In this document: piece by piece, positions 3,626 to 17,204 of the stretch
Layout of the letters: each line of letters begins with the position of its first letter
Numbering within the stretch: the first letter of the stretch is position 1
From: Actinomycetes bacterium
GTDB lineage: Bacteria; Actinomycetota; Acidimicrobiia; Acidimicrobiales; Ilumatobacteraceae
Direction: 5' to 3'
Assembly (NCBI GenBank): GCA_014190235.1
Contig: BJGC01000013.1
Coordinates: forward strand, 1-49,837
Length of the DNA stretch: 49,837 bases
The notes under the pieces: model-generated
Told to the model about the DNA's origin: nothing
The model's input: the letters and a program-made list of their open reading frames with translations, nothing else
Database searches by the model: none
Made by a program: the position numbers and the translations under genes

Positions 3626-4804
3626 GACAGGTCGACGAGCATTTAAAGAAGTCACATTGTCGAACAAAATTCGCTTCTGGTCTTGCGGGGAAAACAGTTT
3701 GTAGTCACTGATTCCGTCGAGAGGAGATGGCAACGCTTCAATGTGTGGCCAGTCACTTCCGAACAACACACGGTCTGCGCCCATTAGTTGAGCAACTTCT
3801 TCGACATCGTCTTCCCAGAATGGGTTGATCCACCAATTGCGACGCAAAGTCTCAACTGGGTGCTCCTGAAAATACCCTGGCATTTTGTGATGCGTGCTTG
3901 CCAGTTTTTTCTGAACATCTTGCAGAAATCCAGAACCATTTTCAACGGACGCCATACGAATATTTGGGAACCGCGTGAACAGTTTGTCAAAGACTGAAGT
4001 GATGATGAAATCTCCGGCTGCTCGCTCGATGCCAAAGCTCTTAATACTCGGGCGGAAGCCTCCGTTAAACGACGAACTAAAGTTGTCTTCGGCGTATCCG
4101 TTTGTGGAGTATCCGCTGTCACCCGCGTGCACGACAACGGTGATCCCAGATTCGTTCACCCGCGCCCAGAAGGGATCGAACTTGGTGTCAAAGGGCGAAA
4201 ATTGTCCGTCCTGAGTGATCGGTGCCGCTGTGCGCATCACGATGGTTCGTGCATCATTGGCGAGTGCCCATTCGAGTTCAGTGCATGCCCACTCTGGATC
4301 GGCAAGTGAAATGTACGGTGCGGCAAAAATTTTGTTTTTGTAGTTGAATCCCCAATCTTCAAGCACCCATCTATTGAACGCAGTAAACGTCAACGCCACG
4401 GCACCCGGATCATGTTTCAGAAGTTCTTCGTACAACATTCCCAGAGTCGGAAACAGCCATACTGCAGAAAGACCAAATCCTTCGATCGTGGCAACACGTG
4501 CATCACGATCTCGATACTCAGGACGGATCGCCTCGCGGTCGACTAAGAACTCCCACGGCTGACGGCCATTGGGGTTTCCCCGAAAATATTCATACATAGC
4601 GCCGGGCATGGCGATGGGGTCAAAAGTTGCGTTAGTGACCGCACGACTTATTTTGCCACCCACTACATGGTACTTGCGCTTGCCGATCTCGGCCCACTGA
4701 ACGCACCGCGGTCCATGTGCTGGATCGAGATGTCGAGTAAAGGCATCGATTGCTTCGTAGTAATGGTTGTCGCAATCGAATGGCTGAAAATCTAGTTCGG
4801 TCAT
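3623..4804 (-). CDS. ACMSD-like amidohydrolase (amidohydrolase 2 family)
   Basis: A 393-residue TIM-barrel metal-dependent hydrolase/decarboxylase of the Amidohydrolase_2 family. The N-terminal metal motif reads FDCDNHYYEA (His14, Glu17) instead of a classical HxH. Further candidate metal or catalytic residues are in TVVVHAGDSGY and in the C-terminal GSDWPHIEAL. The start at 4804 is preferred because AAGGA lies upstream and the family motif begins a few residues in; an in-frame start at 4846 would overlap the divergent gene. It is the first gene of a minus-strand operon with LLM oxidoreductase, unknown protein and FadD19-like ligase. The reaction is unknown. It is more divergent than the other amidohydrolases in this island. 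Confidence 0.8.
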   Translation of the reverse strand: MTELDFQPFDCDNHYYEAIDAFTRHLDPAHGPRCVQWAEIGKRKYHVVGGKISRAVTNATFDPIAMPGAMYEYFRGNPNGRQPWEFLVDREAIRPEYRDRDARVATIEGFGLSAVWLFPTLGMLYEELLKHDPGAVALTFTAFNRWVLEDWGFNYKNKIFAAPYISLADPEWACTELEWALANDARTIVMRTAAPITQDGQFSPFDTKFDPFWARVNESGITVVVHAGDSGYSTNGYAEDNFSSSFNGGFRPSIKSFGIERAAGDFIITSVFDKLFTRFPNIRMASVENGSGFLQDVQKKLASTHHKMPGYFQEHPVETLRRNWWINPFWEDDVEEVAQLMGADRVLFGSDWPHIEALPSPLDGISDYKLFSPQDQKRILFDNVTSLNARRPV

Positions 4805-4831
4805 GGCATTGTTCCTTGTTCTTGTTACCAC

Positions 4832-4838
4832 TACATTA
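4832..4838. promoter_or_regulatory. Overlapping divergent -10 boxes
   Basis: In the 40-base gap between the minus gene starting at 4804 and the plus gene starting at 4845, TACATT (plus, 4832-4837) is followed by seven bases (ACTTGTC) and the ATG at 4845. TAATGT (minus, 4838-4833) overlaps it and would give a leader of about 20 bases carrying the AAGGA ribosome site of the minus gene. This is pattern-based inference. Confidence 0.4.
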
Positions 4839-4844
4839 CTTGTC

Positions 4845-5570
4845 ATGCTACAAATTCACCATCACGGGGCTGTGCGAATTCTGACGCTTGACAGACCAGA
4901 GGCCCGCAACGCGATGGACCACAGCCTGTATATGGCGTTGGGAGATGAGCTCACCGATGCAGCCAATGATGACGATGTTCATGTTGTGATGGTCACGGGT
5001 GCTGGTCCTGCCTTTTGTGCGGGACAGGATCTTCACGAGATGGCTGCGCTGGCAACTGGCAGTGTGTCGTTTGCAGGTGGTCATGGTTTTACGCGCATGA
5101 TGGATGTTCTTGAGATATTTCCTAAGCCGATTATTGCTGCAGTCAACGGAGCGGCAGCCGGCATCGGGTTCACAATGCTCTTGCATTTTGACATTGTGTT
5201 TGTTGGACAAAGTGCGCGAATGCGAGTGCCGTTTTCAGAGATGGGAGTCCCGCCAGAAGCCGCCAGTAGCGCACTGCTGCCCGAACGAGTGGGCTGGCAA
5301 AAAGCATCTGAATTATTGTTCACGAGTTCGTGGATGAGTGCTGAAGAAGCTGTGCAGCATGGACTCGCCTTGCGCCTTTTTGCAGATGACGTACTTCAAG
5401 AAGAGACTCTAAAAATGGCACTTCAAATTGCATCATTTGATGGTCGCGCTACACGCACTTCAAAAGAACTCATGCTGGCAGCGCGCGGTGATATTTCGAT
5501 TGCCGCGCGAGCACGCGAAAATGCAGCGTTTGCGACGTTGTTTCGCACACGACGCGAGTCAAAAGACTAG
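4845..5570 (+). CDS. Enoyl-CoA hydratase/isomerase (crotonase family)
   Basis: A 241-residue crotonase-fold protein. The oxyanion-hole stretch AFCAGQDLHEM is at about 57-66, GAAAGIGF at about 102-108, and a single candidate catalytic acid in MGVPPEAASS (Glu138). One glutamate at this place is the pattern of enoyl-CoA isomerases and PaaG-like proteins rather than two-Glu hydratases, so isomerase activity is possible. ATG 4845 is chosen over the upstream in-frame ATG at 4803 because homology starts there, TACATT plus seven bases precedes it, and 4803 lies inside the divergent gene. It is monocistronic, and its stop overlaps that of the convergent thiolase gene in a shared CTAG. Confidence 0.82.
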   Translation: MLQIHHHGAVRILTLDRPEARNAMDHSLYMALGDELTDAANDDDVHVVMVTGAGPAFCAGQDLHEMAALATGSVSFAGGHGFTRMMDVLEIFPKPIIAAVNGAAAGIGFTMLLHFDIVFVGQSARMRVPFSEMGVPPEAASSALLPERVGWQKASELLFTSSWMSAEEAVQHGLALRLFADDVLQEETLKMALQIASFDGRATRTSKELMLAARGDISIAARARENAAFATLFRTRRESKD

Positions 5571-6715
5571 AGGCGTTCGATAATGGTGACGTTGGCCTGA
5601 CCGCCACCCTCACACATTGTCTGTAATCCGTATCGACCACCTGTGCGTTCGAGTTCGTGCAGCAGAGTCGTCATGAGTCGAGCACCCGTTGCACCAAGTG
5701 GATGACCAAGCGCAATCGCTCCCCCGTTGACATTTACTTTGGCGTGATCTGCGCCAAGTTCTCGCATCCATGCCATAACAACTGGAGCAAACGCCTCATT
5801 AATTTCTACAAGGTCAATATCGTCAATGGTCATTCCGGCTTTTTGTAGTGCTCTTTTGGTGGCCGCTATCGGTGCAGACAACATCATTATTGGATCGTCA
5901 GCCAACACGCTGATGTGATGAATACGAGCGCGTGGCTTGAGGCCATGTTGTTTGACGGCGCGTTCATTCGCAATCAATAATGCAGCAGAGCCATCACTGA
6001 TCTGACTTGCGCATGCTGCAGTGAGTTGCCCGTCTGGCGTGAGGGTTTTCAGTGAGCGAATTTTTTCCCAGTTAGGTTCGCGCGGTCCTTCATCATGTAC
6101 CACGCCGTTGAGCGGCTCGATTTGTGATTCAAAGCGACCCTCGGCAATTGCCCTGATTGCACGTAGGTGACTCTCAACAGCAAACTCTTCCATCTCTGCG
6201 CGAGTGAGTTTCCATTTGCTCACCATCATTTCGGCACCCACAAACTGACTGACTTCACCTGTGCCATACCTAGTTGTCCAGCCAGGTGAACCTGTGAACG
6301 GGTCCGCAAATCCCAGCGCTTCACCCGCCAACATCGCTGACGAAATGGGGATCATACTCATGTTTTGCACACCGCCAGCAACGACGAGATCCATCGTGCC
6401 ACTCATCACTGCTTGTGCGGCAAAATGCACAGCCTGTTGTGCAGAACCACATTGACGATCGATTGTGGTGCCCGGAACATGTTCTGGCAAACCAGCAGTG
6501 AGCCAACATGTGCGCGCAATGCATCCTGCTTGAGGCCCAACTGAATCAACATTGCCAAAGACAACATCATCAACAGCATTGGCATCAACGCCGGTGCGAT
6601 CAATAAGAGCCTTAATACTGTGTGCCCCAAGATCTGCTGGATGAACCTGCGAGAGGCCACCACCACGTCGGCCTACAGGAGTGCGAACAGCGTCGATAAT
6701 AAATGCTTCAGTCAT
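5567..6715 (-). CDS. fadA6: Acetyl-CoA acetyltransferase, FadA6 type
   Basis: A 382-residue thiolase with the full catalytic set: nucleophile Cys89 in TIDRQCGSAQQA, NEAFAPVVMAW, GGAIALGHPLGATGA with the catalytic His, and the second Cys in QTMCEGGGQANVTIIERL. Many stretches (VDRQCGS-like region, VVAGGVQNMS.IPISSAM, ASQISDG, RARIHHIS, PVVMAW) match the mycobacterial FadA6 sequence as I remember it. FadA6 performs a late thiolytic step in degradation of the steroid C/D-ring remnant. The start at 6715 aligns with the family and has TAGACT plus seven bases upstream; longer frames are rejected. The SDR gene ends 10 bases before it. Confidence 0.88.
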   Translation of the reverse strand: MTEAFIIDAVRTPVGRRGGGLSQVHPADLGAHSIKALIDRTGVDANAVDDVVFGNVDSVGPQAGCIARTCWLTAGLPEHVPGTTIDRQCGSAQQAVHFAAQAVMSGTMDLVVAGGVQNMSMIPISSAMLAGEALGFADPFTGSPGWTTRYGTGEVSQFVGAEMMVSKWKLTRAEMEEFAVESHLRAIRAIAEGRFESQIEPLNGVVHDEGPREPNWEKIRSLKTLTPDGQLTAACASQISDGSAALLIANERAVKQHGLKPRARIHHISVLADDPIMMLSAPIAATKRALQKAGMTIDDIDLVEINEAFAPVVMAWMRELGADHAKVNVNGGAIALGHPLGATGARLMTTLLHELERTGGRYGLQTMCEGGGQANVTIIERL

Positions 6716-6728: not shown

Positions 6729-7625
6729 GTTGGGGAACTCTGCATCCCCCGAGTAGAAGGACAAGTCATCGCGACTTTGCTTCATCACCTTGTAGTTCTC
6801 AAGACTTACTACCTGGTCCCAGTGGTCTCGCACGTCTTCGACCGATAGATCTAGTCCCTTGGAATAACCCGGTACACCGATGGTGACAAACAGCGACACT
6901 CGACCGGCACCAGTGTTAACAAGTTCACCCGTGCATGGCACATCATCATGCACCAACCAACACGCAACTGGTGACACTACTGCTGGGGGAAAGTGCTGTT
7001 CCATCCATCGTCGCGTGTCTTCTTGTGGATTTAATGCAGCAGAACGTGTGTAGCCAATCGGTAGGAGCGCGTTCACTTTGATGTTGTGATGTGCACCCTC
7101 AAGCGCCAGTGAACGTGTGAGTCCAAATAATCCAGCTTTGGCCATGCTGTAGGCCGAACTCGCCAACCCACCAAGCCCTGCGCCTGATGACGTCAACAAG
7201 ACTCGCCCGAAGTGTTGTTCTTTCATTAACGGCCATGCAGCACGGCACATATTGAAAGAACCCACCAAGTGTGTTCCAATGATCATGTCGACTTGCTCGT
7301 CTGTCGTGTCTTCAAATAATCCAGTGGGCCCACCGCGACCAGCATTGTTTAAAACAATATGGAGTGCACCAAACTCACTGACTGTGCGTTGCACAATGTC
7401 AATGCATTGGTCTGAGTCGCTGACGTCACCAACCACGGCAACTGCTTGACCACCTGCTGCAACAATGTCTGCGGTGGTTTGAAATGCCCACTTCTCTGAC
7501 GAGTCGTTCACCACCACGCGCGCTCCACGGGCCGCCAACAATAATGCGTGTTCTCGCCCCAGCCCACGCCCGGCCCCTGTCACGATCGCAACACGTGCAT
7601 CAAATCGGATATTGCTATCGCCCAT
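6726..7625 (-). CDS. SDR-family dehydrogenase, HSD17B4/MFE-2-like
   Basis: A 299-residue classical short-chain dehydrogenase. The cofactor loop TGAGRGLG is at 16-23, NNAG at 93-96, the active-site serine in LLTSSGAG (~146), and YSMAK (Tyr159, Lys163). The opening FDARVAIVTGAGRGLGREHALLLAARGARVVVND is the signature of the (3R)-hydroxyacyl-CoA dehydrogenase domain of peroxisomal MFE-2 and of Hsd4A/ChsB1-type steroid enzymes. A 3-hydroxyacyl-CoA oxidation next to the FadA6-type thiolase downstream is therefore the natural inference. Start ATG 7625: TACTGT plus exactly seven bases precedes it. Confidence 0.83.
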   Translation of the reverse strand: MGDSNIRFDARVAIVTGAGRGLGREHALLLAARGARVVVNDSSEKWAFQTTADIVAAGGQAVAVVGDVSDSDQCIDIVQRTVSEFGALHIVLNNAGRGGPTGLFEDTTDEQVDMIIGTHLVGSFNMCRAAWPLMKEQHFGRVLLTSSGAGLGGLASSAYSMAKAGLFGLTRSLALEGAHHNIKVNALLPIGYTRSAALNPQEDTRRWMEQHFPPAVVSPVACWLVHDDVPCTGELVNTGAGRVSLFVTIGVPGYSKGLDLSVEDVRDHWDQVVSLENYKVMKQSRDDLSFYSGDAEFPN

Positions 7626-7649
7626 GTAAAGCACAGTACTGTGCAATAC
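7626..7649. promoter_or_regulatory. Symmetric bidirectional leaderless promoter
   Basis: The whole intergenic space between divergent starts at 7625 (minus) and 7650 (plus) is 24 bases. It contains the perfect 14-bp palindrome GCACAGTACTGTGC at 7631-7644. On each strand the palindrome supplies TACTGT (plus 7637-7642, minus 7638-7633), sharing the central TA. In both directions exactly seven bases separate the box from the ATG (GCAATAC on plus, GCTTTAC on minus). One symmetric element thus appears to start two leaderless mRNAs. It could also be a regulator site. Confidence 0.6.
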
Positions 7650-8507
7650 ATGGCCAACGCTCATGGGGATATTCCACCACGCGCACACGACGGCCCACGC
7701 GCCATTCTTGTGACTGGAGCAAGTCGTGGCATCGGACGTGCAACGGCTCTTGCACTTGCAGCACAGGGACACAACTTAATCTTGACTGCACGATCGGTAG
7801 ATGGTGGGTTGCAATACCAAGGCACGTCAATTCATGATGACCTAATCGGCGAAATATTCTCTGGTTCGGTGAACGAGGTTGCCGAGCAGTGTCGCTCACA
7901 TGGCGTTCGCGTTGAGACTGTTGCAATGAATCTGACAGACGAATCAAGCGTGCAGGCTGCTGCTGAGCATGCTTTGACAAAGTTTGGTTCTGTTGACACC
8001 ATCGTCTCGAATGCCATTTATCAAGGCCCAGGTATTAATGATCGCTTTGATGATCTTCCGATCGACACTTTGCGACGCGTTATCGAAGCAGATGCTGTTG
8101 CGCCATTGGTGCTGCTCAAAACTCTGTTGCCATCAATGCTGGCAAGTGGTCGCGGTGTGTACGTGCATGTCACTTCTGGAACCGCAACACTCGTGCCGCG
8201 TTATCCCGCAGGTCAAGGTGGATGGGGTTTGGCATATGCGATGGCCAAGGGTTCTGCGCATCGCATCGCAGGTATTTTGCAGGTGGAGTACCAACAACAT
8301 GGATTCCGAGCCCACAATCTCAACCCGGGTCATGTCACCACAGACGCGATGATCGCGCGCTCACAAAAAACCGGACAGGTTGCGACTGGCCAGTCGCCAG
8401 AGATCGCGGCGCATGCAATCGCATGGTTGATTGCTGGCAGTGACGCTGCAATTGCGCTTGGTGGTCAAGAGTCAATCGCCCGCGACATTGCGCGGGATGC
8501 GATGTAA
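7650..8507 (+). CDS. SDR-family oxidoreductase
   Basis: A 285-residue short-chain dehydrogenase. The loop TGASRGIG is at about 22-29, the catalytic pair in LAYAMAKGSAHRIAG (~195-199), and a Ser/Thr-rich strand VHVTSGTATL before it. A longer-than-usual segment after the second strand (about residues 50-70) precedes the NAxYxGPG region, which replaces the usual NNAG (here SNAIYQGPG). The substrate is unknown. ATG 7650 is chosen because the -10 box TACTGT lies seven bases upstream; upstream in-frame starts run into the divergent SDR gene. It stands alone and converges with the 8514-9290 gene across six bases. Confidence 0.8.
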   Translation: MANAHGDIPPRAHDGPRAILVTGASRGIGRATALALAAQGHNLILTARSVDGGLQYQGTSIHDDLIGEIFSGSVNEVAEQCRSHGVRVETVAMNLTDESSVQAAAEHALTKFGSVDTIVSNAIYQGPGINDRFDDLPIDTLRRVIEADAVAPLVLLKTLLPSMLASGRGVYVHVTSGTATLVPRYPAGQGGWGLAYAMAKGSAHRIAGILQVEYQQHGFRAHNLNPGHVTTDAMIARSQKTGQVATGQSPEIAAHAIAWLIAGSDAAIALGGQESIARDIARDAM

Positions 8508-10215: not shown

Positions 10216-11424
10216 ATGCGCGAATTACCTAAAATCATTTCCGTTGACGACCATGTCATTGAACCCGCCACCGTGTGGACAGACCGTATCCCAAAAAAAT
10301 ACCAAGATGTGGCACCACGCATTGAGCGACGCACCGTCAAAGAGATGTCCTTCATCGGCGGAAAGTTCACCGCTATTCCTGGCGACAAGGGCGACAAGGG
10401 CGAAATGGTGGACTGGTGGTTTTATGAAGACCTCCGTCGTCCACTGACTCGTCTTGACACTGCTGTGGGTTTTGATCGCGATGACATCACGCTCAAAGGA
10501 ATCACCTACGACACGATGCGACCTGGTTCGTACCTAATTAAGGATCGTCTCGAAGACATGGACGTCAATGGCATCGAAGCTTCACTGTGCTTCCCTACTT
10601 TCCCGCGGTTTTGCGGACAGACCTTTACAGAGGCAAGCGATAAAGATTTAGCCACGCTGTGTGTGCAGGCGTACAACGACTGGATGATCGAAGACTGGTG
10701 CGGGAACTCTGGTGGCCGCTTGCTGCCGCTCACAATCGTGCAACTCTGGGATCCGGTGGCAGCCGCAAAAGAAGTTCGACGAAATGCTGATCGTGGTTGT
10801 CACGCAGTGTGTTTTAGTGAGATCCCTGCCAATTTAGGATTGCCAAGTATTCATGATGAAAACGGATACTGGATGCCGTTCTTTGAAGCCTGCAACGACA
10901 CCGGCACAACCATCAACATGCATATTGGTTCTGGCTCAAAAATGCCAAGCACATCACCCGATGCGCCGGCTGCTGTTGGATCAGTGCTGACATTTGCAAA
11001 CTGTTGTTTCAGCATGGTGGATTGGCTGATGAGCGGATTGTTCACTCCATTTCCTGATTTGAAAATTGCGTATAGCGAAGGACAAATCGGATGGATTCCG
11101 TACATTCTGGAGCGTGCTGACACGGTCTGGCGCGAAAATCGCGGATGGGGTGGCGTCGCAGACAAAGTCTTTGAGTTGCCAAGTGACCTGTTTAAGAAGC
11201 ATGTCTACGGTTGCTTTTTTGATGATGCGTTTGGTCTAAAAAACATCGAGTCCATCGGCGTCGACAATGTGACATACGAAAGCGATTATCCACATAGCGA
11301 TAGCACATGGCCTCACACTGCCAAGTTGGCCGCCGAACAAACTGCAGACTTATCAGATGAAGTGATGTACAAAGTCTTGCGTGGCAATGCCATCAAGATG
11401 CTGGGCATCACACATCTGTCCTGA
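10216..11424 (+). CDS. ACMSD-like amidohydrolase (amidohydrolase 2 family)
   Basis: A 402-residue TIM-barrel metal-dependent hydrolase or decarboxylase. The opening IISVDDHVIEP carries His13 and Glu16 (HxxE instead of HxH). Further ligand candidates are NMHIGSGS in mid protein, the conserved YSEGQIGWIPYILERAD, and ESDYPHSDSTWP near the C terminus. It is a close paralogue of the product of 26675-27913 and related to that of 29603-30802. It heads a six-gene plus operon with FadD3-type ligase, alcohol dehydrogenase, two ligases and SDR, under operator S1. Its stop overlaps the ligase start as TGATG. The reaction is unknown; family members act on carboxylated or hydrated ring-cleavage intermediates. 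Confidence 0.85.
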   Translation: MRELPKIISVDDHVIEPATVWTDRIPKKYQDVAPRIERRTVKEMSFIGGKFTAIPGDKGDKGEMVDWWFYEDLRRPLTRLDTAVGFDRDDITLKGITYDTMRPGSYLIKDRLEDMDVNGIEASLCFPTFPRFCGQTFTEASDKDLATLCVQAYNDWMIEDWCGNSGGRLLPLTIVQLWDPVAAAKEVRRNADRGCHAVCFSEIPANLGLPSIHDENGYWMPFFEACNDTGTTINMHIGSGSKMPSTSPDAPAAVGSVLTFANCCFSMVDWLMSGLFTPFPDLKIAYSEGQIGWIPYILERADTVWRENRGWGGVADKVFELPSDLFKKHVYGCFFDDAFGLKNIESIGVDNVTYESDYPHSDSTWPHTAKLAAEQTADLSDEVMYKVLRGNAIKMLGITHLS

Positions 11425-13007
11425 TGCGCGCTGATCTCAAACACGGCACCATTGCCCAATTAGTGCGCAATTGCGCGACACAGTACGCCGATGTTGAGGC
11501 CTTGGTCGATGGCGATATCCGTCTGGGCTACCCAGAATTTGTTGAAGAAGTTCAGCGCAGCGCCCGAGCCTTTATGGCCGCAGGACTCACTCGCGGTGAT
11601 CGCGTCGCTATGTGGGCACCAAATATTCATGAGTGGGTGATTGCTGCTCTTGGTGCACTCACTGCTGGCGGGGTGATTGTGCCGCTCAACACCCGCTTTA
11701 AGGGTGAAGAAGCAGCGTATGTCTTGTCTCGCAGTCGCGCCCGATTCTTGTGCTGTGTCAATGGCTTTCTTGGCAACGAATACGTGTCGATGCTTCGCGC
11801 TGCTGACACCAGTGTCCCCGATCTCGCAACCATTGTGGTGCTCCGCGGAGATACGCCCGATAACACGGTGTCGTGGACTCACTTTTTGTCAGCGGCAAAC
11901 ACAGTGTCAACGACGCAATTAGACGAACGTGTCGCAAGCATTTCTGCAAGCGATCTCTCTGACATTATTTTTACAAGTGGCACTACGGGTCGCCCTAAAG
12001 GCGTAACGACAACACACGCACAAAATCTCCGCGTGTTCGAAGACTGGGCCTCCATCATTGGACTCGTTCAAGGTGATCGCTACCTCATTGTGAATCCGTT
12101 CTTTCATACGTTTGGATACAAGGCCGGAATCATTGCATCACTTCTAAAGGGTGCAACCATAATTCCCGAAGCAATCTTTGATGTTCCGGCAGTACTGCAA
12201 CATGTCAGCGAGGAAAAAGTGACGATGTTGCCAGGTCCGCCGACACTGTATTTATCTATTCTCAACCACCCAGATCGAGATAAGTTTGATTTGAGTTCGC
12301 TGCGTCTCGCAGTGACAGGTGCTGCGGCCGTGCCAGTTGAGATGATTAAGCGAATGCGCGAAGAACTTACTTTCAAAACAATAATCACTGGTTATGGACT
12401 CACTGAATCCACTGGGACTATCAGCATGTGTCGGCCCGAAGATGATCCTGAGATCATCTCAACCACAAGCGGCAGAGCAATTCACGATGTCGAAATTCGT
12501 ATCGTTGATGACGACAACCTTGAAGTACCCCGCGGCACTGCTGGAGAAATTGTTGCTCGTGGATACAACGTGATGAGTGGTTACTACGAAGATCCTGTTG
12601 CCACGGCCGAAGCAATCGATTCAGATGGTTGGCTTCATACAGGTGATATCGGAGTGATGAACGCTGATGGTTACATCGACATCACCGATCGCAAAAAAGA
12701 TATGTTCATCGTGGGTGGATTCAATGCATACCCAGCCGAAATCGAAAACTCATTGCTTGGCCACGCCTCAATCGCGCAGGCGGCCGTCGTCGGCGTGCCA
12801 GACGAACGCCAGGGTGAGGTCGGATGGGCTTTCGTGGTGGCACGAACAGGTGTAACAATTGACCCAGATGGTCTGATTTCTTGGTGCCGTGAACGCATGG
12901 CCAACTACAAGGTGCCCCGGCGCATCGTGGTTGTCGATGCCTTGCCCACTAACCCAAGCGGCAAAGTTCTCAAGTACGAACTACGTGCTCGAGCGGCAAC
13001 TATGTAA
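11424..13007 (+). CDS. fadD3: FadD3-type acyl-CoA ligase (HIP-CoA ligase-like)
   Basis: A 527-residue ANL-family ligase. The P-loop IIFTSGTTGRPKGV is at 181-194, ITGYGLTEST follows, then the GWLHTGDIG motif, the hinge ITDRKKDMFIVGGFNAYPAEIEN and catalytic Lys514 in NPSGKVLKYELR. The run VNPFFHTFGYKAGIIASLLKGATIIP...LPGPPTLYLSIL...FDLSSLRLAVTGAAAVPVEMI matches mycobacterial FadD3 closely as I recall it. FadD3 couples CoA to HIP, the propionate-bearing C/D-ring remnant of steroids. It is coupled to the upstream amidohydrolase by a one-base stop/start overlap. Confidence 0.85.
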   Translation: MRADLKHGTIAQLVRNCATQYADVEALVDGDIRLGYPEFVEEVQRSARAFMAAGLTRGDRVAMWAPNIHEWVIAALGALTAGGVIVPLNTRFKGEEAAYVLSRSRARFLCCVNGFLGNEYVSMLRAADTSVPDLATIVVLRGDTPDNTVSWTHFLSAANTVSTTQLDERVASISASDLSDIIFTSGTTGRPKGVTTTHAQNLRVFEDWASIIGLVQGDRYLIVNPFFHTFGYKAGIIASLLKGATIIPEAIFDVPAVLQHVSEEKVTMLPGPPTLYLSILNHPDRDKFDLSSLRLAVTGAAAVPVEMIKRMREELTFKTIITGYGLTESTGTISMCRPEDDPEIISTTSGRAIHDVEIRIVDDDNLEVPRGTAGEIVARGYNVMSGYYEDPVATAEAIDSDGWLHTGDIGVMNADGYIDITDRKKDMFIVGGFNAYPAEIENSLLGHASIAQAAVVGVPDERQGEVGWAFVVARTGVTIDPDGLISWCRERMANYKVPRRIVVVDALPTNPSGKVLKYELRARAATM

Positions 13008-13059
13008 TACGGGCCTTACTGCCTACACTTCTACACACTGACAAATATCGGGGGACATT

Positions 13060-14166
13060 ATGCGCGGAATCATTTACGACGGAACCACGTCACAACTAGT
13101 TGAGGGAATCCAAGTTCGCGATCCTGGACCGCGCGAAGTCATCGTTGAAATCGGGGCAGCGGGTCTTTGTCATAGCGACGTCAGTTACATGAGCGGCCTC
13201 TACCCTGTTCCGTCACCAGGTGTGTGTGGCCACGAAGGAGCCGGAATCGTCACGACGGTCGGCAATGCCGTCACGCATGTGAAACCAGGAGACCATGTCA
13301 TTATTGCCACCCTGTCTTCGTGCGGAATGTGTGAGTACTGTGCGTCCGGACGCCCAACGGCGTGTCGGGCAACTCTTGCCAACTGGAGCCAGCCGTTCAC
13401 CTTTGAAGGAAACCCAATATTTAATTTTGCAGCGACGAGCGCCTTTGTTGAGCGCACGCTCGTGCGTGATGTGCAGTGTGTCAAGATTCCCAATGATGTG
13501 CCGTTGTCCTCCGCGGCCATTGTTGGTTGTGGTGTCGTTACCGGAATGGGTGCTGTTTTCAACAGAGCAAATGTTCAGCGTGGACAAAGTGCAGCAGTCT
13601 TTGGTGTTGGAGGGGTTGGACTCAATGTCATCCAGGCGCTGCGTGTTCAGGGTGCAACCACAATCATCGCGATCGATACTGTGCCCGAAAAAGAATCAAT
13701 CGCCCGAAAATTTGGAGCAACCCACTTTATTGACGGCAAGCGCGAGGACATTGTTGACGCAATTGCTCAAATCTGCCCATCAAGTGCCACTGCACCACGT
13801 GGTGCATTTAACTCTGGCGGCGTGAATTGGGCATTTGATTGTGTTGCTCATCCAACCGTTACATGGAATGCGCTTGAATCACTGGATTGGGAAGGAACGG
13901 TTGTCGTCATCGGTGTGTCATCACAAACGGCAGAGTTCAAAGGTCTCTATGGTCGCCTCACTCAGGTCGATAGAGGCATCATCGGTTGTCGCTATGGCTC
14001 AATCTCGCCACATCGTGATATCCCACGGATTATAGAAATGTACCGTCGTGGCGACGTGCTACTTGATGAACTTGTCACCGCGGTTCATCCAATTGAAAAG
14101 TGGCGAGACGCAGTTCATGAGATGGAAACTGGAGCAGTTGCTCGTGGCGTTTTGTCGTTTCAGTAA
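13060..14166 (+). CDS. Zinc-dependent alcohol dehydrogenase (MDR family)
   Basis: A 368-residue medium-chain dehydrogenase. Catalytic zinc ligands are GLCHSD (Cys) and GHEGAG (His-Glu). The complete structural zinc motif is CGMCEYCASGRPTAC. The NAD(P) fold starts at VFGVGGVGLNVIQALR, with AIDT at the end of the second strand, suggesting NAD preference. Overall it resembles mycobacterial AdhD / class III-like enzymes. The start at 13060 has GGGGGA four to five bases upstream. The likely role is oxidation of an alcohol, possibly the terminal side-chain alcohol of a sterol, to aldehyde. The 52-base gap before it is the largest inside this operon, and an internal promoter is possible but not evident. 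Confidence 0.85.
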   Translation: MRGIIYDGTTSQLVEGIQVRDPGPREVIVEIGAAGLCHSDVSYMSGLYPVPSPGVCGHEGAGIVTTVGNAVTHVKPGDHVIIATLSSCGMCEYCASGRPTACRATLANWSQPFTFEGNPIFNFAATSAFVERTLVRDVQCVKIPNDVPLSSAAIVGCGVVTGMGAVFNRANVQRGQSAAVFGVGGVGLNVIQALRVQGATTIIAIDTVPEKESIARKFGATHFIDGKREDIVDAIAQICPSSATAPRGAFNSGGVNWAFDCVAHPTVTWNALESLDWEGTVVVIGVSSQTAEFKGLYGRLTQVDRGIIGCRYGSISPHRDIPRIIEMYRRGDVLLDELVTAVHPIEKWRDAVHEMETGAVARGVLSFQ

Positions 14167-14178
14167 TTCGGTTCACAG

Positions 14179-15669
14179 ATGCAACTTCCCCCTGCCCCAT
14201 TGACAGGGAACTTCAGTTCTGTCTTAGACATCTTTGATGAGGTCATTCGAATTGCGCCGCTCCACGAAGCATTTGTTCAACCTAACCCCAACGGACCAAC
14301 ACGTCGATTGAGTTTTGTTGACTGGGCGGCGCAGGCAGACGCCTTGGCTGGTTGGTTACACGAACAGGGTGTGCGCAAGGGAGATATCGTTGGACTGCAA
14401 TTACCAAGCGGTATCGACTATGCAATTGCGTACCAAGCCATTGTTCGTGTTGGTGCAATTGCCACTGGCATAAACCCACGCCTTGGTCCTAGTGAGATTA
14501 GCCACATCATTGCACGTTGCAAACCTGTGTATGTTTTTGACGGCGCTTTGCCAGACTGCCACGGTGGAGACCCATTGCGCCGACGAGTCGCTCTTGACTC
14601 AACAGATCCGATGGCAATTGTGTGGACTGGTGGAACAACTGGTTTTCCAAAAGGCGCGTGGTTTGATCATGCTTGCCTTGAAGCAATGTCTCACGGTGCT
14701 GCACCGCTCAGCGTTATTGGTGATCGACGTTTATCACCACTCCCCTTTGCTCATATTGGGGCAATGACGCGGGTATGGGATGAGTTAATGCATCTCATTA
14801 CCACTGTGATCGTGCCGTCTCCATGGACTGCGGCCGGTGCGCTGAGCGCAATCCATTTCGAGCGCGTCACTGTCAGTCAAGGAGTCCCGACACAGTATCG
14901 AATGATGTTTGATCATCCAGACTTTGCAACGACTGATACTTCACACCTACGCATTGCCGGCATTGGGGCGGCACGTATTCCGCCCGAACTCGTGATGGAA
15001 ATGCAAGAAAAACTCAAATGTCCGGTTGTGGTGCGCTACGCCAGCACAGAAGGATGCCTAGCAACCGGAACCCGACTCGACGATGACATTGACACCATCT
15101 GTACAACGGTGGGCAGGCCAAACGGTGGAGTCAAGATTCGTATTGTTGCATCTGACGGTTCAGAATGCGCGCCTAACGAAGTCGGCACGGTGCAATTGCA
15201 CAGCCGTGCACGAATGCGCGGATACTGGAAAGACCCTGAACTTACGTCTCAATCTATTACGCCTGACGACTGGTTGATCACAGGTGATCTTGGTCGCGTC
15301 GATGCAGCTGGCAACTTGCATCTCGCTGGACGCAGCACCGAAATGTATATCCGAGGCGGCTATAACGTGTATCCAATTGAGATCGAAAACGTTCTTGGAA
15401 CGTATTCAGACATCTTGAGTGCAGCCGTTTTGGGTGCATCGGTGTCAGACAGATTAGGAGAGATCGGTGTACTTTTTGCTGTTGCCCGCCCAGGGGCAAC
15501 ACTCGAAATATCGGCCATCCGCTCCTTTGTTCAAGCGTCTTTGGCCAACTACAAGGCTCCCGATATCTTGGTGGTAGTTGCAGAACTTCCACTGACATCA
15601 CTAGGCAAAGTAGACAAGAAGCAACTACAACCAACAGCAAATCAGGAGGCCGCCCAATGGTCGCGCTAG
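14179..15669 (+). CDS. AMP-dependent acyl-CoA synthetase
   Basis: A 496-residue ANL-family ligase. The P-loop VWTGGTTGFPKGAW is at about 148-161, VRYASTEGCLATGT is a variant of the YGxTE motif, then WLITGDLGRVD, the hinge LAGRSTEMYIRGGYNVYPIEIEN and the catalytic Lys in LTSLGKVDKKQL. It is shorter than most FadD proteins through a compact N-terminal part. The substrate is unknown. It starts 12 bases after the alcohol dehydrogenase and its last 13 bases overlap the next ligase gene, so the three genes are co-transcribed. Confidence 0.82.
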   Translation: MQLPPAPLTGNFSSVLDIFDEVIRIAPLHEAFVQPNPNGPTRRLSFVDWAAQADALAGWLHEQGVRKGDIVGLQLPSGIDYAIAYQAIVRVGAIATGINPRLGPSEISHIIARCKPVYVFDGALPDCHGGDPLRRRVALDSTDPMAIVWTGGTTGFPKGAWFDHACLEAMSHGAAPLSVIGDRRLSPLPFAHIGAMTRVWDELMHLITTVIVPSPWTAAGALSAIHFERVTVSQGVPTQYRMMFDHPDFATTDTSHLRIAGIGAARIPPELVMEMQEKLKCPVVVRYASTEGCLATGTRLDDDIDTICTTVGRPNGGVKIRIVASDGSECAPNEVGTVQLHSRARMRGYWKDPELTSQSITPDDWLITGDLGRVDAAGNLHLAGRSTEMYIRGGYNVYPIEIENVLGTYSDILSAAVLGASVSDRLGEIGVLFAVARPGATLEISAIRSFVQASLANYKAPDILVVVAELPLTSLGKVDKKQLQPTANQEAAQWSR

Positions 15670-17204
15670 ACACGGTTCTCGACACCACGAATAAAACTTT
15701 GTGGCAACTCATTGAAGAACGCGCATCCACAACTCCAGACAAGTGCATGGCTCGCGATGAATCTGGCCGAACAATGACGTATGGTCGTTATCGCGAGTGG
15801 TGCCTTCAAGTTGCAGCAGGTCTTTATGAGATGGGAATTGACATCGAGTCAAAAGTGTCTTGGATCATGCCATCACGATTTGAATCATTTGTACTCACTG
15901 GTGCCCTCAGCAGACTCGGTGCAATCCAGAATCCGATTCTGACGATCTATCGTGCACGTGAGGTGAGCTTCATCGCTCAACAAAGTGGCTGTCAGTTCCT
16001 GATTATTCCCAATATATTTCGTGGTTTTGAGTATCCGGCAATGGCAACGGAAGCAGTGGCTGGACTGAGCACTACGGTCATTGTGGCTGATCCAAATCTG
16101 CCAGAAGCAAGTCCAACAATTCTGCCTGCCTATGTGCCCGCTCTCAAAGAACTGCGATGGTTATTTTATTCTTCCGGCACTACTGCAGATCCAAAAGGGG
16201 CTATGCACAATGACTACTCCTTGTCTGCGGCCAACAACGGAATGCAATGGAGCATGCAGGTTGGGCCCGACGACAAAGCAGCAGTTGTTTTTCCGATTAC
16301 ACATGTCGGTGGATTGGTGTGGTTATTTAATGCGATGCAAACTGGCGTCGAACTACTGATGGTTGAAACCTTTAATGCAACCGAGACACCCAAATATCTC
16401 GGAGATCATGGCGTCACATGTGCGGGTGCTGGCACTGTGTTTTGGCTTGCGTATCTCAACGCACAGCGACAATTGCCCGCAGGTGAAAAGTTGATGCCGA
16501 CTGTTCGTATCTTTAATGGTGGCGGTGCCCCAAAACCAAAGACCTTGCACTACGAAATGCTCGCTGAGTTAGGTGCACCGGTGATTGGCGGTTGGGGTCT
16601 GACCGAAAGCCCAATCAACACAATGGTGCACGTTGAGGACGCCGATCATAAAAAAGCCGAGACCGATGGTCGTGCGTGTCCTGATGTTTTACTTCGAACT
16701 GTCGTTGACGGTCGCAACTGCAATGCGGGCGAAGAAGGGGAACTGCGCGTCAAGGGTCCACAGGTGTGCATGGGATACCTGGATGCATCTCTTGATGCTG
16801 ACGCATTCGACGAGGATGGCTGGTTTCGCACAGGGGATCTCGGAGTGATTGATGCGGAAGGTTTTGTCAGCATCACTGGGCGCCTAAAAGACATCATTAT
16901 TCGCAAAGGTGAAAACATCAGCGCCAAAGAAATCGAAGATTTACTCTACGCTCATCCTGCAATTGCCGATTGCGCTGTGATTGGACTTCCTGACGCCAGC
17001 AGCGGAGAACGTGCGTGCGCGGTGGTCGTCTTGAAAGCCGGTAGTTCTCTCTCTTTCAAAGAAATGGTTGACTACCTTGGCAACAAGCAACTCTCAATGC
17101 ACAAAGTGCCAGAACAACTCGAAATTACCGATGCTCTCCCACGGAACCCCAGTGGCAAAGTACTCAAAAAGGATCTCCGCGCCACCTATGGTGGCAGCAA
17201 CTAA
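15657..17204 (+). CDS. AMP-dependent acyl-CoA ligase (cyclohexanecarboxylate-CoA ligase-like)
   Basis: A 515-residue ANL-family ligase. The P-loop WLFYSSGTTADPKGAMH is at about 168-183, GGWGLTESPINTM follows, then the GWFRTGDLG motif, hinge ITGRLKDIIIRKGENISAKEIED and catalytic Lys in NPSGKVLKKDL. The YSSGTTADPKG form is typical of AliA-like / cyclohexanecarboxylate ligases. ATG 15657 lies inside the end of the preceding gene, with a strong AGGAGG seven bases upstream, which decides the start. Two adjacent ligases of different subfamily suggest successive acid intermediates or parallel substrates. Confidence 0.82.
   Translation: MVALDTVLDTTNKTLWQLIEERASTTPDKCMARDESGRTMTYGRYREWCLQVAAGLYEMGIDIESKVSWIMPSRFESFVLTGALSRLGAIQNPILTIYRAREVSFIAQQSGCQFLIIPNIFRGFEYPAMATEAVAGLSTTVIVADPNLPEASPTILPAYVPALKELRWLFYSSGTTADPKGAMHNDYSLSAANNGMQWSMQVGPDDKAAVVFPITHVGGLVWLFNAMQTGVELLMVETFNATETPKYLGDHGVTCAGAGTVFWLAYLNAQRQLPAGEKLMPTVRIFNGGGAPKPKTLHYEMLAELGAPVIGGWGLTESPINTMVHVEDADHKKAETDGRACPDVLLRTVVDGRNCNAGEEGELRVKGPQVCMGYLDASLDADAFDEDGWFRTGDLGVIDAEGFVSITGRLKDIIIRKGENISAKEIEDLLYAHPAIADCAVIGLPDASSGERACAVVVLKAGSSLSFKEMVDYLGNKQLSMHKVPEQLEITDALPRNPSGKVLKKDLRATYGGSN

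Follow-up and report, generated by a model that had tools for sequence, protein, structure and literature searches.

What defines a bacterial bidirectional promoter is a pair of divergent start sites separated by 7-25 bp; 18 bp is the commonest distance, 10 and 23 bp are also common, and the available parts of the papers that describe them place overlapping -10 elements on opposite strands of one short sequence (Middlemiss 2023, PMC10268837; Warman 2026, PMC12825309). A second kind of signal, the TANNNT box located some 10-12 bp upstream of the start codon, marks leaderless genes in the sections of two further studies available to us (Zheng 2011, PMC3160421; Cortes 2013, PMC3898074). Here we analyse a 24-bp gap between two divergent genes of the short-chain dehydrogenase/reductase (SDR) family in a bacterium of the Ilumatobacteraceae (assembly GCA_014190235.1, contig BJGC01000013.1, positions 1 to 49,837; this whole stretch of 49,837 nucleotides is referred to as the window), which we consider likely to be a bidirectional, -35-poor, housekeeping-type (sigma-70-like, TANNNT) promoter with overlapping boxes and two leaderless messenger RNAs (mRNAs).

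Overlapping -10 promoters that work in both directions are already known, and the pair of boxes studied here, TACTGT and TACTGT on opposite strands sharing one TA, joins that kind. Unlike the known bidirectional promoters, both of its products would be leaderless, the core makes up the whole intergenic gap, and it is known from sequence alone. With the leaderless TANNNT genes it has in common both the box and its position. The tuberculosis case includes the divergent leaderless pair prpD/Rv1129c, and in the portions of PMC3160421 and PMC3898074 at hand no two leaderless genes on one -10 core are described, unlike here. The wider literature, represented mostly by titles and the beginnings of abstracts, yielded no description of a core shared by two leaderless genes and no report on leaderless promoters under the term "acidimicrobi-".

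Two -10-like boxes share one TA between divergent SDR genes

An earlier note on this DNA had drawn attention to the gap (GTAAAGCACAGTACTGTGCAATAC, by direct reading) as a mirror-image promoter between SDR genes. Both flanking genes do match the Pfam family adh_short, and the 14-bp palindrome (GCACAGTACTGTGC), the two TACTGT boxes with their common TA at 7637-7638 and the seven bases from each box to its ATG were all re-read as the note gave them (Table 1). The symmetry is wider than described there, extending into a quasi-palindrome with the arms CCATGTAAAGCACAGT and ACTGTGCAATACATGG that takes in both start codons. Perfect 14-bp palindromes are not rare by themselves, with 4 in the window against about 3.0 expected. 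In simulated random gaps of 24 bp, by comparison, at least 10 of the 12 dyad pairs match with a probability of about 4e-5, and boxes shared at exactly seven bases on either side arise with a probability of about 0.003, both values being post hoc, since the feature had been chosen by eye. The palindrome alone is unremarkable; its placement and the spacing of the boxes are remarkable.

In the arrangement that we propose, one 10-bp core, ANNGTACNNT, would present polymerase with a -10 box whichever way it faces, T-12/A-11 of one box being A-11/T-12 of the other. Transcription would begin no more than one base from each ATG, leaving both mRNAs without a leader, and the first codons of each gene would double as the spacer and the -35 region of the other gene. 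If the starts do lie at the ATGs, the shared T-12/A-11 would set them, by our own derivation, about 23 bp apart with 6-nt spacers and 25 bp apart with 7-nt spacers. Two polymerases could presumably not sit at the core together, for steric reasons, and the full palindrome would be specific to this species, superimposed on the shared core.

TANNNT boxes are concentrated 6-9 nt before start codons in samples of this and three other genomes

In what follows G, L and g are working labels for genomes, loci and genera, and x/y gives the left and right box-to-start spacers in nt. The source genome (G000) is small, comprising 2.02 Mb in 55 contigs, of which a sample of about 450 kb was analysed with a simple gene caller. 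Before the 248 starts of this sample that are not internal to operons, 25, 18, 5 and 7 TANNNT boxes ended 6, 7, 8 and 9 nt from the start codon, giving 55 boxes against about 5 expected, on a background that averaged about 1.3 per distance between 10 and 29 nt. The same peak at 6-9 nt was present in three other genomes of the family (400-kb samples each), and both boxes of the gap, at 7 nt, fall within a range that is thus common in the genome.

A second gene caller, applied to 70, 71, 59 and 67 divergent pairs from G000, G017, G053 and G043, respectively, returned two divergent gaps with a strict shared core and both spacers of 5-9 nt in G017 and listed none in the three other samples; the pair studied here was absent from this set, its left start having been moved to 7664. 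The source genome has a further divergent gap of 24 bp (L088, contig C4:69643-69668, GGCGGATTGACTACGGTAAACCAA), in which, by eye, the plus-strand ATG has TACGGT at 7 nt and the minus-strand ATG has an imperfect TAGTCA, likewise at 7 nt, around the same TA.

We then searched 221 genomes of the family for CAT-Nx-ANNGTACNNT-Ny-ATG and counted the matches, with the reversed pattern as control. At spacings of 6/6, 6/7, 7/7 and 8/8 there were 24, 47, 7 and 13 sites, against 0, 11, 0 and 4 in the control, whereas the wrong spacing 4/5 gave 7 sites against 18. Two long divergent open reading frames (ORFs; at least 90 codons, or running off the fetched locus) flanked 16 of the 24 sites at 6/6, 22 of the 30 examined among the 47 at 6/7, six of the seven at 7/7 and 11 of the 13 at 8/8, compared with none of the seven at 4/5 (55/74 versus 0/7, Fisher p about 2e-4, orthologues not removed). 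All 44 qualifying sites among the 61 of the first three classes had at least 90 codons on both sides; in the 8/8 class L238, which duplicates L245 within one assembly, qualifies only by running off. The 61 located sites form 33 clusters, and those whose representatives have two such ORFs come to about 20 distinct clusters; since sites are grouped in this way, with orthologues included, they are not independent events. The genes beside them were varied, among them GlpX-like, UvrD-like and MtnA/MtnB-like ones (names by eye). Chance alone as the source of the box overlap was ruled out by the spacing-specific enrichment over the reversed controls together with the ORF comparison.

One group of these sites (L154-L158, genus g6) is a 6/6 shared promoter whose neighbours, by eye, encode a lysine-rich protein and one that begins with a twin-arginine-like sequence; it has the look of a shared promoter that carries an operator.

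Most orthologous pairs keep the overlapping boxes but not the palindrome

Orthologues of the right SDR gene were sought by protein alone in 32 genomes of its own genus, 150 of the family and 24 of genus g23. This gave 21 loci in which the left SDR gene adjoins divergently, four from the own genus (own site included) and 17 from g23, the left SDR being 54-70% identical outside the own genome. Weaker protein matches (about 40% identity or less) lie outside the comparison, as do the relatives of the right SDR in g22 (L042-L049), where the left SDR is more distant in seven of the eight loci, separated by other sequence, and is missing from the locus in L046.

Overlapping boxes that share a central TA are kept in 16 of the 21 pairs (12 distinct gap sequences), and GTAC is central in all 16. 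Apart from the 7/7 spacing of the own site, fourteen of these pairs are 6/7 and one, which uses a GTG start, is 8/7. If there was more than one candidate start codon, the script chose the combination that favours sharing; the fourteen 6/7 cases have ATG on both sides. The letters that flank GTAC differ by genus, being AAAGTACCCT in three species and ACCGTACAGT in g23. In three further pairs (L039, L040 and L041) the gap is 50 bp and a separate box stands exactly 6 nt before each gene. Each gene thus seems to need a box at that distance, and where the gap is short a single core would do for the two genes.

The conservation of the palindrome in relatives, which the earlier note had put forward as a check, was not borne out. 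Among the 15 other orthologues with shared boxes, 14 are asymmetric, matching at 0-4 of the 8 free dyad pairs, while L098 (G172, contig C81), with the 8/7 shared core, has a partial mirror of its own (6 of 9 free pairs) in a sequence unlike the palindrome of the window. As far as these gap sequences go, the overlap is conserved and the palindrome is not. What stands of the mirror-image promoter is thus the minimal two-way leaderless promoter, which is supported by the position of the boxes across the genome, by the 16 orthologous pairs and by the spacing-specific sites of the family; the palindrome as its essential feature is not supported. We conclude that the shared two-way core is probably real and conserved, the palindrome and the mutual exclusion of the two genes being less secure.

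Observations that weigh against a shared promoter

Several results count against this conclusion. TACTGT matches TATAAT weakly, and a strict two-hexamer sigma-70 scan of the site found no promoter, a negative that fits the absence of a -35 motif reported for Mycobacterium tuberculosis. A strict shared core occurs in one of the 66 divergent pairs of the G000 sample (17 gaps of up to 65 bp), and that one is the finding itself, so the arrangement is a rare solution and not the rule of the genome. Beyond the family, sites of the 7/7 class, the spacing searched there, were near chance in a phylum sample of 396 genomes (12, excluding two already known sites, versus 9 in the control), and three of these 12 lie between two long ORFs. 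Among the orthologous pairs, L096 and L038 had no shared boxes according to the script: under the box rule used L096 has one box only, and L038, which the script left unresolved, has two separate boxes by eye. Finally, the left gene has an alternative in-frame ATG at 7662-7664 on the minus strand, 13 codons upstream, which the second gene caller preferred and with which the two SDR genes would overlap. The start codons assumed in the earlier note, at 7625 and 7650, fit the orthologue translations (comparison by eye), so that the orthologues favour 7625 and the second caller does not.

The weakness of the boxes and the negative scan would also suit an arrangement in which the boxes are not promoters at all and each gene is read from a promoter inside the coding sequence of the other, the gap being merely short. 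We regard this as very unlikely, given that the enrichment depends on spacing, that box positions are conserved in both directions, and that the longer gaps of L039-L041 carry one box for each gene.

A further claim of the earlier note was that the two genes are locked into mutual exclusion or a fixed ratio. Polymerase would probably occupy the core in one orientation at a time, yet according to the part of PMC12825309 available to us all five of the five E. coli bidirectional promoters tested were too weak for competition at basal activity, which argues against such a lock, and competition could arise upon substantial activation. By analogy, mutual exclusion or a fixed ratio is possible for these two genes; it is unproven and is not the default expectation.

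Where the mirror symmetry may come from

A shared promoter core leaves the symmetry of its surroundings to be explained. Mirror symmetry is not a general property of short divergent gaps: in the four genome samples run through the second gene caller, which thus lack the present pair, gaps of 12-60 bp showed matches at 265 of 1055 midpoint pairs (25%). At the 7/7 sites of the family between two real genes, taken one per cluster (n=6, the finding itself included), 40 of 54 free dyad positions match (7, 3, 8, 7, 9 and 6 of 9), whereas shuffled pairing gave a mean of 19.6 and none of 20000 shuffles reached 40. Of the other spacing classes among the four compared, 6/7 (30/80, shuffled mean 29.8) and 6/6 (21/56, shuffled mean 19.5) are at the shuffled level, and 8/8 matches at 46 of 110 positions (no shuffle in this case). 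Single sites can be more symmetric still: at L105 (G113, contig C7:91888-91917), one of the six 7/7 sites, a perfect palindrome of 30 bp reaches from one start codon to the other, flanked by amidohydrolase-like and trimethylamine methyltransferase-like genes with no regulator beside it (all by eye). A search of 15 genomes of that genus (E 1e-60) found no orthologue of this pair other than itself. The arms of L106 are mirrored in G067 (7/7) and in G082 (8/8), which differ in arm length and sequence; the site is unequal in G049 (by eye 8/10), and no such site was seen in G057.

The promoter reading could be right and the symmetry belong to a regulator, with the palindrome mainly the site of a dimeric protein, of the TetR type or similar, that lies across the two -10 boxes and switches the genes together. 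The two-fold symmetry does extend beyond the boxes, a near-perfect palindrome among the six 7/7 sites (L103, G043) adjoins a gene that by eye is TetR-like, and the five g6 species at L154-L158 retain a largely symmetric core around GTAC. We nevertheless find an operator unlikely at this locus, where the orthologues do not keep a symmetric site, as the 14 asymmetric gaps and the different letters of L098 indicate, and where no regulator was found among the ten neighbouring ORFs scanned (one of them without any match). A role as a genome-wide operator was ruled out, near matches with up to 2 mismatches occurring at 7 places in the own genome (own site included) against 6 for the reversed control, no excess over chance.

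The mirror may instead be a by-product of replication. Template-switch mutation at quasi-palindromes, as treated in the available parts of PMC7202029 and PMC8604942, offers a hypothesis for it: a switch within an imperfect inverted repeat would have copied the right arm (box, 7-nt spacer and ATG) onto the left, replacing an ancestral 6-nt spacer. We hold this as a tentative possibility. It would accord with the spacers, 14 of the 15 other shared-box orthologues having 6 on the left and 7 on the right and only the own site 7/7; with the own arms, which match at 7 of 9 free positions, and the partial mirror of L098 in different letters; with the excess of symmetry in the 7/7 class and its lack at 6/7 and 6/6; and with L106, whose arms changed length jointly and are still mirrored. 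Against it, the own left arm agrees with ten orthologous right arms at 2-5 of 9 positions, little better than with the left arms (3-4 of 9, best gap), the 8/8 sites show little excess, and the symmetric class consists of only six sites, one of them the finding, picked out of four spacing classes inspected. Whereas an operator would explain some of the mirrored sites, inverted copying of an arm would explain the joint change of length. That the mirror promoters of the family arise in this manner, replication copying the box, spacer and ATG of one leaderless start region in inverted form onto its neighbour, is a conjecture to which we give a low probability. If true, a mutational process would equip two divergent genes with matching start signals in a single step, and it would have left its footprint in the 7/7 class, whose palindromes run from one ATG to the other.

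Genes around the gap

The left SDR gene is followed on the same strand by a thiolase gene, with which it is probably cotranscribed (Table 1). Neither SDR gene reached the cut-off of any NCBIfam model among the 25 best models per gene.

Table 1 Features in and around the gap, in window coordinates
Feature	Position	Strand	Remarks
Intergenic gap, proposed entire two-way promoter core	7626..7649	.	24 bp
-10-like box TACTGT of the plus-strand gene	7637..7642	+	7 nt to ATG 7650; direct reading
-10-like box TACTGT of the minus-strand gene	7633..7638	-	7 nt to minus-strand ATG 7625-7623; direct reading
Perfect 14-bp palindrome	7631..7644	.	direct reading; sequence not kept in orthologues
32-bp quasi-palindrome, both start codons inside	7622..7653	.	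16-nt arms, 88% complementary
Left gene, SDR family, 299 aa	6726..7625	-	Pfam adh_short 1.2e-44; start matches orthologues
Right gene, SDR family, 285 aa	7650..8507	+	Pfam adh_short 1.2e-28; start matches orthologues
Thiolase, 10-bp gap downstream of left SDR, same strand	5567..6715	-	NCBIfam PRK07801 acetyl-CoA C-acetyltransferase, above cut-off

Elsewhere in the window, at 4802-4845, the called starts of a divergent amidohydrolase gene (minus strand) and enoyl-CoA hydratase gene (plus strand) overlap within CATG, and by eye the hydratase may start instead at a later ATG near 4845. Three acyl-CoA-ligase-like genes lie at 11424-17204, with an alcohol dehydrogenase gene between the first two; of the ligases, the first alone scores above an NCBIfam cut-off (FadD3 family). 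This region is probably a catabolic cluster, and the window also holds the thiolase, hydratases and the SDRs.

Significance

The gap would be a natural minimal two-way promoter with a core of about 10 bp, in which a leader, a -35 element and a ribosome site have no room outside coding sequence. Its orthologues, some with a shared core and others with separate boxes, would lend themselves to a comparison that asks whether two genes become coupled when they share a -10 box, and the pattern CAT-N6-8-ANNGTACNNT-N6-8-ATG may aid the assignment of start codons in the family.
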